Positions 8,754 to 11,869 of a stretch of DNA of 11,869 nt are shown piece by piece. Origin of the DNA: Planctomycetota bacterium (GTDB lineage Bacteria; Planctomycetota; Planctomycetia; Pirellulales; Pirellulaceae). The stretch is taken from the NCBI GenBank assembly GCA_019347795.1, contig JAHWKS010000070.1, positions 1 through 11,869 on the forward strand, written 5' to 3'. Both the position numbers and the translations under genes were made by a program. Numbering within the stretch: position 1 is the stretch's first letter; every line of letters starts with the position of its first letter. The notes beneath the pieces were generated by a model. The model was not told where the DNA came from and ran no database searches. It was given only the letters and a program-made list of their open reading frames with translations.

Positions 8754-9749
8754 TTGACTGAGCTGAACGCGCCGCCGGGCGCTATCTTTCGCGATCGCCA
8801 GCGTGCCGAAATCGAGCCGCTCGATCCGCAGATCACCTCGATTCAACCCGGGGGCGGCGTCTGCATGCGCGTCGAATTGGCGTGGGGGCGCGTCCGGAGG
8901 GCTTACCTCAAGACGTTCCGCCGAGGCTATGTCAAACGGATGCGGCAATTGCGGCGCGGCGACCGCAACGCCTGTCCCCACGAAGTGCTCGATCCCCGAG
9001 ACCTCAAGTTTTATCGCAACCAGGGCGGATTCCACTGGGCGCCGGAGAACGACCCATTCACGTGGCGCGACCGGCTCCCGTTCGCCCGCGTCGGACTGGC
9101 GGAGCTATTGCTCATCGGCGGCGGGCTATTGCTGCTGACGGCCGTCCTGCTCGCGATCACTCCCTGGCTGGCGATCGCGCCCTGGCTGGCCATCGCGCCG
9201 GCCATCACTGCAACGGGCGTAATCTGGTTCTTCCGCAATCCGCGACGCATCGCTCCCGCGGAGTGGGGCGCTGTGGTCGGCCCTGCCGACGGCAAGATCG
9301 TCGCCGTCGAACACCTGGAGCACGACGACTTCATCGGCGGACCCGCCGTGCAGATTGGCATCTTCCTTTCGATCTTCAACGTCCATATCAACCGCACTCC
9401 CGAAGCGTGCCGCGTGATCGGCATGACCTACCGCCGCGGCAAGTTCCTCAACGCGCTCTTGCCTCGCTCCGCTCAAGAGAACGAGCAACTGACGCTGCGG
9501 CTGGAAGAAACGGCTGCGCCGCATCGACGATATGTCGTGCGGCAAATCGCCGGCGCCATTGCCCGCCGCATTGTATGCTGGGTGGTCCCCGGCGAGGAGC
9601 TTGCCCGCGGCGAGCAGTTGGGAATGATCAAGTTCGGCTCGCGAACGGAGTTGGTCCTGCCTCGCGAGGACGGACTGGCGGTGACAGCGAAGGTGGGGGA
9701 CCGCGTGAAAGCGGGCGTCACGATCCTCGCCCGCTATCGGAATGATTGA
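8754..9749 (+). CDS. psd: Phosphatidylserine decarboxylase proenzyme with N-terminal extension
   Basis: 331 aa. It converts phosphatidylserine to phosphatidylethanolamine at the membrane, using a pyruvoyl group made by self-cleavage. The catalytic part is the short (type II) form: a helical hairpin (~115-157), FFRNPRR (159-165), GPADGKI (176-182, with Asp179), NVHINR (209-214, with His211) and the cleavage motif FGSRTE. Cleavage between Gly295 and Ser296 would make Ser296 the pyruvoyl residue. Unlike usual type II enzymes of ~210-230 aa, there is a ~110-residue N-terminal extension with blocks ELAWGRVRRAYLKTF and DPRDLKFYRNQGGFHW. The start is TTG 8754, with GGGAG six bases upstream; ATG 8865 would remove 37 residues, including conserved-looking sequence. 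An 18-bp tandem duplication lies in the membrane hairpin. It is directly followed by pssA. Confidence 0.92.
   Translation: MTELNAPPGAIFRDRQRAEIEPLDPQITSIQPGGGVCMRVELAWGRVRRAYLKTFRRGYVKRMRQLRRGDRNACPHEVLDPRDLKFYRNQGGFHWAPENDPFTWRDRLPFARVGLAELLLIGGGLLLLTAVLLAITPWLAIAPWLAIAPAITATGVIWFFRNPRRIAPAEWGAVVGPADGKIVAVEHLEHDDFIGGPAVQIGIFLSIFNVHINRTPEACRVIGMTYRRGKFLNALLPRSAQENEQLTLRLEETAAPHRRYVVRQIAGAIARRIVCWVVPGEELARGEQLGMIKFGSRTELVLPREDGLAVTAKVGDRVKAGVTILARYRND
9162..9197 (+). repeat. 18-bp tandem duplication inside psd
   Basis: Two 18-bp units (9162-9179 and 9180-9197) differ at one base. They encode PWLAIA twice in the membrane-hairpin turn of Psd. The repeat is in frame and adds six residues. Confidence 0.85.
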
Positions 9750-9781
9750 ACTATCGGCGACTTTGCCTGGAGAAAGCATCC

Positions 9782-9826
9782 TTGAAGCGACTCACCCTGA
9801 AGCGCCCTCTCTTGAAGCGACCTCGC
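9782..9826 (+). repeat. Three 15-bp tandem repeats at the pssA start
   Basis: The units begin at 9782, 9797 and 9812 and share T/C-TGAAGCG followed by a CT-rich half. Each encodes L-K-R plus two residues. Each unit starts with TTG or CTG, so each could in principle serve as an initiation codon. Confidence 0.8.
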
Positions 9827-10651
9827 GCGATCGCCGTCCTGCCCACTTTGCTGACGCTGGGGAACGCCGCCTGCGGCTTCGCCGCCATCACGTTCGCCAC
9901 GCAGGTGGATCCCGTCTCGCCCGCCGCAAACCTGCTCGCGGTGGCGGGCCTCTTGATCGTGGCCGCGATGTTCTTCGACATGGTGGATGGGAGCGTCGCC
10001 CGGCTGATGCGGCAGACCAGCGACTTCGGCGCCCAACTCGATAGTCTGGCCGATGTGATCAGCTTCGGCGTCGCCCCGGCGATTCTCGTGATTCACTGCT
10101 CCTATCACTATCATCCGCGGCTCTTGTGGTGTCTGGCGGTATTGTTTGTTTTGTGCGCGCTGCTGCGGCTGGCTCGCTTCAACGTCGAGACGAGCGACGA
10201 CGACTCGCACACCTCGTTCATCGGGCTGCCCTCTCCCGCGGCCGCCGGCGCCGTGGCGTCGTTCGCCATTGCCTGGCCCGGGTTCGTGCGGCTGACGGAA
10301 GATCACATGCCGGAGCGGGTCCAGGAAATCGGAAGCTGGCTGATCACCGCCACCAGCCTCTCGCTGCCGGTATTGGCGGTGGTGCTGGGCTGCTTGATGG
10401 TTTCGCGAATCCGCTATCCGCATGTGTTCAACATCGTGTTCCGCGGCCAGAGCAGCTTTCCGTACCTGATCAAGCTGGTGTTTGCGATGGTGGCCGTCTT
10501 CGCCTTTCACGAGCTGGCCGCGCCGCTGATTTTCCTGTTTTTCGTGTTGGAGTCGCCGCTGCGGGCTTTATTTCTCGGCGGAATGGTGCGCCGGTTGCAC
10601 TCCGTCAGCGGCGACGGGTCGATCCTTGTTTCCGGTGACGAAGATGCCTAA
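9782..10651 (+). CDS. pssA: CDP-diacylglycerol--serine O-phosphatidyltransferase
   Basis: 289 aa from TTG 9782, which has TGGAGA with an 8-base spacer. It makes phosphatidylserine from CDP-diacylglycerol and serine in the membrane. The CDP-alcohol phosphotransferase signature is complete: D66-x2-D69-G70-x2-A73-R74-x8-G83-x3-D87-x3-D91. About six to eight hydrophobic helices follow. VLPTLLTLGNAACGFAAI just upstream of the first helix and FGVAPA after the motif are typical of the Bacillus-type (subclass II) PssA. A second candidate start, TTG 9746, overlaps the psd stop by three bases and would give 301 aa through translational coupling. The N terminus contains three 15-bp repeats encoding LKR. 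The product is the substrate of the upstream psd. The 3' end overlaps the methyltransferase start by 8 bp. Confidence 0.9.
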   Translation: MKRLTLKRPLLKRPRAIAVLPTLLTLGNAACGFAAITFATQVDPVSPAANLLAVAGLLIVAAMFFDMVDGSVARLMRQTSDFGAQLDSLADVISFGVAPAILVIHCSYHYHPRLLWCLAVLFVLCALLRLARFNVETSDDDSHTSFIGLPSPAAAGAVASFAIAWPGFVRLTEDHMPERVQEIGSWLITATSLSLPVLAVVLGCLMVSRIRYPHVFNIVFRGQSSFPYLIKLVFAMVAVFAFHELAAPLIFLFFVLESPLRALFLGGMVRRLHSVSGDGSILVSGDEDA

Positions 10652-11418: not shown

Positions 11419-11589
11419 GTGAGCATCGTACGCATCGGATCGAACGAAAAATACGCGTCCCACTGGGACGAGGTCTTCGGCGGCAAAAAGGGCAAGTCCG
11501 CCGCCAAGAAGAAGACGGCGAAATCTCCCGCCAAGCCCGCCAAAGCGAAAACCTCGGCCAAGAAGAAGGCCGCCAAAAAGAAGAAATAA
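11419..11589 (+). CDS. 56-aa Lys/Ala-rich basic protein
   Basis: It starts at GTG 11419, with AAGGAA (11404-11409) nine bases upstream, and ends with TAA at 11587. The first ~20 residues are a distinct, conserved-looking head (MSIVRIGSNEKYASHWDEVF). The remaining 34 residues after two Gly are about half Lys (17) and a quarter Ala (9), with Ser, Thr, Pro and Gly spacers: an unstructured, strongly positive tail like those of histone H1-like or DNA/RNA-binding proteins. I recall similar small planctomycete proteins with a V-R-x-G-x-N-x-K-Y-x-x-x-W head and a KKxAK tail; no function is known to me. Nucleic-acid binding is an inference from charge. It is short enough to be missed by length cut-offs. 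Neighbours on the same strand are pmtA (97 bp before) and the selenoprotein (71 bp after). Confidence 0.75.
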   Translation: MSIVRIGSNEKYASHWDEVFGGKKGKSAAKKKTAKSPAKPAKAKTSAKKKAAKKKK

Positions 11590-11660
11590 CAAGTACAGAT
11601 CAAATTCGGTCGCCTGCGATCCGCGAATCCGGGCGCCACGGAACAAAGAGGAAGCAAAGG

Positions 11661-11869
11661 ATGAAGGTCCAACTTCGCTACTGCGCCGCGTGAAACTATG
11701 AGCCCGCGGCCGTCAGTCTGGCGGCCAAGATTCTCACCGCCCACAAGCAGCGCATCGCCGGCCTGGAGCTGGCGCCATCCTCCGGCGGCTGCTTCGAGCT
11801 GACCGTCGGCGATGAATTGATTTACTCCAAGCTCGCCACGGGCGAATTCCCCGACGAAGCCGCCATGGT
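11661..11869 (+). CDS. SelW/Rdx-family selenoprotein (CxxU, UGA = selenocysteine), 3' end outside window
   Basis: ATG 11661 has GAGGA (11648-11652) with an 8-base spacer. The frame reads MKVQLRYCAA, then TGA, then NYEPAAVSLAAKIL and on without another stop to the window edge (69 codons visible of an expected ~85-95). Reading TGA as selenocysteine gives Cys8-Ala-Ala-Sec11 at the end of the first beta strand, exactly the redox position of the Rdx family (SelW, SelT, SelH; thioredoxin-like fold). Family marks continue after it: U-N-Y-x-P, then P-S-S-G-G-C-F-E-L-T-V and L-I-Y-S-K-x-x-T-G-x-F-P. A SECIS-like hairpin lies 14 bases after the TGA. The usual role is a small thiol/selenol redox protein; the partner is unknown. 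The alternative is a Cys-to-stop nonsense mutation, disfavoured by the hairpin and the intact downstream frame. A standard annotation would miss this gene. Confidence 0.85.
11691..11693 (+). other. Recoded TGA codon (selenocysteine 11)
   Basis: In-frame TGA at codon 11, at the second redox position of a C-x-x-U motif. The protein family match continues immediately on both sides in the same frame. Confidence 0.83.
11708..11726 (+). promoter_or_regulatory. Bacterial SECIS-like stem-loop
   Basis: GGCCGUC pairs with GGCGGCC (7 pairs, one of them U-G) around the five-base loop AGUCU. The loop begins 21 bases after the TGA, inside the coding region as bacterial SECIS elements are. The G in the second loop position followed by UCU closely resembles the AGGUCU loop of E. 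coli fdhF, whose GU contacts SelB. Confidence 0.75.

Follow-up and report, generated by a model that had tools for sequence, protein, structure and literature searches.

The window, which is the whole 11,869-nt stretch of DNA that was analysed, constitutes the entire contig C380 of a planctomycete genome (5.92 Mb in 976 contigs, 72.11% complete) and carries a selW-like selenoprotein gene at its 3' end (11661-11869, + strand). The ATG start codon (11661-11663) lies 8 nt downstream of GAGGA (11648-11652, + strand), which from its sequence is the likely ribosome-binding site, and opens a run of ten codons; codon 11 is a TGA (11691-11693, + strand), and the frame then continues for 58 codons without a stop up to the contig end at position 11869, so that 69 codons can be read. 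Since the window is the entire contig, the 3' end of the gene is absent; judged by relatives of equal length class (75-81 codons), approximately 6-12 codons are missing. With the UGA read as selenocysteine (U), the product is MKVQLRYCAAUNYEPAAVSLAAKILTAHKQRIAGLELAPSSGGCFELTVGDELIYSKLATGEFPDEAAM, in which the C-A-A-U (CxxU) redox motif is encoded at 11682-11693 (+ strand). This layout agreed with the initial annotation, which had described an ATG behind a good ribosome-binding site, ten codons, a TGA and then an uninterrupted frame.

Directly upstream of selW there is a small lysine-rich ORF of 56 aa (11419-11589, + strand; GTG start assumed), which has the motif VRxGSxxKYAxxWxxxFG, or one close to it, at its N-terminus and had no match in Pfam or NCBIfam. 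Elsewhere in the window, a phosphatidylserine decarboxylase ORF is followed by a CDP-alcohol phosphatidyltransferase ORF with a 4-base overlap (8754-10651, + strand); these are likely to be a phospholipid synthesis pair.

The read-through product was compared with protein family profiles. It matched the Pfam Rdx profile (PF10262) with 62.3 bits (cut-off 22.6, E = 5e-17) over profile positions 1-66 of 74, and the alignment ran across the TGA, which bore out the earlier claim that Rdx similarity spans this codon. It also matched the SelW/T/H profile TIGR02174 (CXXU_selWTH) with 58.7 bits (cut-off 34.2). The sequence of the full-length orthologue from relative G001 matched solved Rdx/SelW chains, namely 3dex (3.4e-10) and Selenoprotein W, 2npb (9e-4). 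In common with SelW-like bacterial selenoproteins (PF10262, TIGR02174), the product has CxxU near its N-terminus and matches the Rdx profile; according to two surveys (PMC1088965, PMC2398784), members of this group likewise contain a UGA in frame and, after it, a hairpin whose small apical loop includes a G. No class-level difference from these proteins was found; the narrower equivalog NF041051 (SelTWH_Campy, cut-off 88) was not reached by the truncated window product (66.9 bits) or by the full-length G001 orthologue (76.2 bits).

Conservation of the gene was determined in 60 genomes: that of the window, one from its genus, 35 from its family and 23 from its order. In 28 of these, the window's own counted, there was an Rdx gene interrupted by a single internal stop, in each case a TGA. 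The TGA site was identical in all 28 genes, each of which encoded YCxxU near the N-terminus, with N, D or G as the next residue and Y after it; the site corresponded to residue 11 in 26 of the 28 (starts picked by script). The 27 complete genes were 70-81 codons long and ended in TGA (12), TAG (11) or TAA (4), the window's gene running off its contig. When the 58 codons after the TGA were compared between the window and 22 relatives, five relatives with a 3-residue gap being left out, mean pS was 0.66 and mean pN 0.23; the frame past the TGA evolves as a protein, under purifying selection. This protein-like evolution, together with the sharing of the TGA among the 28 genomes, showed that the gene is not a product of chance.

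Within the coding sequence, past the UGA, the RNA folds into a hairpin (11708-11726, + strand) whose core stem pairs 11711-11715 with 11719-11723 around a GUC loop (11716-11718, + strand). The three-base loop position, 22 nt past the UGA, started with G in 28 of 28 TGA genes. At least five contiguous pairs were formed at this place in 25 of the 28 genes, with fewer in the other three, and among 200 offsets along the gene it was the strongest, the runner-up reaching only 7 of 28. The outer three pairs of the eight-pair stem were weak (paired in 18, 11 and 15 of the 28 genes). Covariation was tested on the five-pair core in 27 distinct sequences against 500 shuffles; with kinship uncorrected and coding constraint acting on the same bases, 97.0% of cells were paired, the cells altered on both sides numbered 8 compared to 1.3 (sd 1.0) after shuffling, and the covariation score was 0.345 compared to 0.173, with each of the last two values reached by 0 of 500 shuffles. 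Two pairs were altered on both sides, a count that 15 of 500 shuffles reached, and there were 7 further pair types, a number attained in 8 of the 500. Shifting the partner by 1-3 columns reduced core pairing to 27-43%. The conserved, covarying hairpin past the UGA is a bacterial SECIS.

The initial annotation had predicted that selA, selB, selD and a tRNA-Sec would be encoded elsewhere in the genome, and all four were found, selB as a fragment and selD as part of a fusion. The tRNA-Sec, with anticodon UCA, scored 65.5 bits (gathering score 47) and was also identified by ARAGORN; a second match, at 47.1 bits, was barely above the gathering score. The selA match scored 547 bits. The selB match, located where contig C715 begins and hence cut, scored 286 bits and covered positions 2-233 of 581. 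The selD match (L112) was located in a 755-aa ORF (G000:C143, 921-3188, - strand) with a pyridine-nucleotide-disulphide oxidoreductase at its N-terminus (TIGR03169, 366 bits) and selD behind it. This fusion passed the selD profile TIGR00476 (256.8 bits, cut-off 125), yet it also resembled TIGR04369 (fusion_not_SelD; 442 bits, under the cut-off of 700), and for this reason its sequence makes it a likely, not a certain, working SelD. Fusions of SelD with an NADH-dehydrogenase-type domain are known and are described as the commonest SelD fusion (PMC2398784, PMC4561486). Elsewhere among the relatives selD occurred either in a TGA form or as a stop-free fusion; one genome (G057) had four selD matches (contigs C1, C97, C80 and C21), each with one internal TGA and each likely to be a Sec-containing SelD.

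To relate selW to the Sec machinery across the 60 genomes, a Sec-using genome was defined as one with at least two of the following: selB over its cut-off, selA over its cut-off and a tRNA-Sec of at least 60 bits. At E <= 0.001 the tRNA-Sec model matched all 60 genomes as well as all 14 control genomes and for this reason was not used as a marker; above the gathering score it matched 46 of 60 genomes and 5 of 14 controls, and the line of 60 bits, placed at an observed gap in the scores, retained 32 of 60 genomes. Similarly, selB at E <= 0.001 was matched in all 60 genomes and all 14 controls, presumably through other GTPases, and hence the curated cut-off was used, which was exceeded in 32 of 60 genomes and 2 of 14 controls. 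Matches over the cut-off were obtained for selA in 38 and for selD in 33 of the 60 genomes. By this definition, a TGA-containing selW was present in 27 of 34 Sec-using genomes compared to 1 of 26 others (Fisher p = 1.5e-9, uncorrected for kinship). The single exception, G003 (99% complete), had a TGA selW, a selD that contains one TGA, and a tRNA-Sec of 65.8 bits; neither selB nor selA was over its cut-off in this genome. Its selW lies 2.9 kb from the start of a contig, on the side where four relatives have selB 3.0-3.5 kb after selW, so this absence may be due to a gap in the assembly.

Cysteine forms of the protein were also sought. Named genomes were scanned with a pattern in which Cys replaced Sec, so that the scan could detect Cys homologues only; from 23 pattern matches it yielded 6 loci. 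The closest Cys orthologue (L119, from a Planctomycetaceae bacterium) was 71% identical to the window's product and had TGC at the Sec site, giving CxxC where the 28 TGA genes have CxxU. Its genome encodes selB (371 bits) on contig C76, which by its number is the contig of L119 itself, and a similar lysine-rich reading was present upstream of the gene. Since the TGA form was far commoner among the relatives searched, L119 is likely, on this comparison of sequences, to represent a Sec-to-Cys replacement. Four contiguous pairs were formed at the hairpin position in L119; this does not demonstrate decay of the element, because the distant Cys form L123 also had four and three of the TGA genes had fewer than five. 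The other five Cys loci were from Dehalococcoidia, Phycisphaerales, Verrucomicrobiales, Myxococcales and Caulobacteraceae. The window's genome itself encodes a Cys-type paralogue (L001, on G000:C659; 106 bits), which belongs to the Rdx family like selW but has a CTGC motif and no UGA. Eight of the 60 genomes had full-length, stop-free Rdx matches of a different, higher-scoring kind; a Sec-containing SelW was lacking in G007 and G041 among these eight, and short stop-free Rdx fragments were found in G006 and G046.

Database searches returned 675 homologues, several of which, among the matches listed, bore the JGI name "selenoprotein W-related protein". In the 16 sequences examined, the Sec site was occupied by Trp in nine (P0004, P0006-P0011, P0019 and P0022) and by Cys in four, including P0003, which resembles L119; the remaining three (P0055, P0061 and P0117) were 58-aa forms starting past the site. 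One of the latter, the Planctomycetaceae protein P0061, was the same as the selW product of G017 after residue 20, the first letter excepted. From their sequences, the Trp forms are probably gene calls in which UGA was translated as Trp.

These database entries bear on two other explanations of the internal UGA. The nine Trp forms look as if called with UGA as Trp, as would be the case if the genetic code were altered and UGA encoded tryptophan or another standard residue throughout the genome. UGA is, however, the terminal stop in 12 of the 28 selW genes, so that it bears two meanings inside the same gene, which is evidence against reassignment of the code; of 10 window ORFs checked for their last codon, 4 also ended in it, and the genome has a tRNA-Sec(UCA). 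An altered code was rejected on the selW terminal stops and the tRNA-Sec(UCA), and we regard it as highly improbable. The 58-aa entries, in turn, could indicate that the real product starts downstream of the UGA and lacks the redox motif. Such short forms are, however, what a gene caller delivers when UGA is taken as a stop, and a downstream start is at odds with the conservation of residues before the UGA (YC in 28 of 28 genes), with an Rdx profile that begins before the UGA and with a covarying hairpin that would be left without evident purpose; these three observations led to its rejection, and the chance that it is correct appears negligible. Finally, a pseudogene with a disabling TGA, or a sequencing error in which TGC or TGT was miscalled as TGA, might be entertained for a fragmented source genome (976 contigs, 72% complete) but was refuted by the relatives, in which the identical TGA was kept in 28 of 60 genomes with protein-like substitution after it, and has scarcely any probability. 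Decay of the gene in relatives, a concern raised at the outset, was not seen; they had kept the TGA or, in L119, had Cys, with no further internal stop.

Taken together, the gene is a genuine one, of a type that gene finders can truncate, and its internal UGA is very probably read as selenocysteine. The proposal of a hidden SelW-like selenoprotein with an in-frame TGA was supported by the Rdx match, the conservation of the gene, the SECIS and the Sec genes. We estimate a probability of about 97% that the gene encodes a SelW-like (Rdx) thiol oxidoreductase with a CxxU active site, in which the UGA at codon 11 would be decoded as Sec via the SECIS. The conserved UGA, the conserved and covarying hairpin, the co-resident Sec genes and the purifying selection past the UGA were all observed here. 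In the proposed mechanism, the SelA/SelB/SelD/tRNA-Sec system would decode codon 11 as selenocysteine, directed by the SECIS inside the coding sequence, with its loop starting 22 nt past the UGA. From knowledge of the family, selenium would thereby be inserted into the SelW-like protein, and the Cys-Sec pair would carry out thiol/selenol redox chemistry on a thioredoxin-like fold.

The neighbourhood of selW was also compared among the relatives. In 16 of the 28 genomes, a lysine-rich reading similar to the upstream ORF was found in the 600 nt preceding selW, with a motif that was written after the sequences had been viewed and a count that has no chance control. In the 26 genomes where both genes were located, selW and selB shared a contig in seven; the distance was 1.6-3.5 kb in five of these, 18 kb in G005 and 112 kb in G020, a single-contig genome. 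The occurrence of selW in 27 of the 34 Sec-using genomes, the proximity of selB (within 3.5 kb in 5 of 26) and the recurrent lysine-rich ORF suggested the speculative, and in our view rather unlikely, idea that in this order SelW is the core selenoprotein, the one for which the Sec machinery is retained, with the lysine-rich protein as a possible partner or client. The distance of 112 kb in G020, and the fact that nearness was seen in only 5 of 26 genomes, argue against it.

The selW-like CxxU family is a standard family of bacterial selenoproteins (PMC1088965, PMC1794560, PMC2398784). SelW-like proteins are among 25 selenoprotein families of the Sargasso Sea, with a bacterial SECIS (PMC1088965), and head the list of most abundant families in the Global Ocean Sampling data, with 427 selenoproteins compared to 56 Cys homologues (PMC2398784). 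In Sec-using organisms, Cys homologues of this family are stated to be very rare or absent (PMC1794560), which fits the 28 TGA forms found here. In Epsilonproteobacteria, according to PMC4607533, selW genes in particular were wholly missed by genome annotation. A 2016 report (PMC4807772) described planctomycetes that have several selenoproteins and a complete set of Sec genes; like the organism studied here, the Porphyra isolates P1 and P2 of that report are planctomycetes with complete Sec-insertion genes and selenoproteins. The term SelW was absent from the main text of that paper, the table of selenoprotein candidates being placed in its supplement. No report on SelW in planctomycetes in particular was met in the literature consulted, which does not imply absence from print. 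The initial annotation had suggested that planctomycete selenoproteins are little discussed; given the standing of the family and the 2016 report, this overrated the novelty of the gene.

The finding is an additional, well-supported case of a well-known and common bacterial selenoprotein family; it will not surprise specialists and leaves knowledge of the mechanism of selenocysteine insertion unchanged. It confirmed from raw sequence a gene that automated calls can cut to 58 residues or read with an active-site Trp. Among the 60 genomes of one order, it documents 28 with a conserved Sec-containing SelW, which has a covarying SECIS and for which a Cys counterpart exists.
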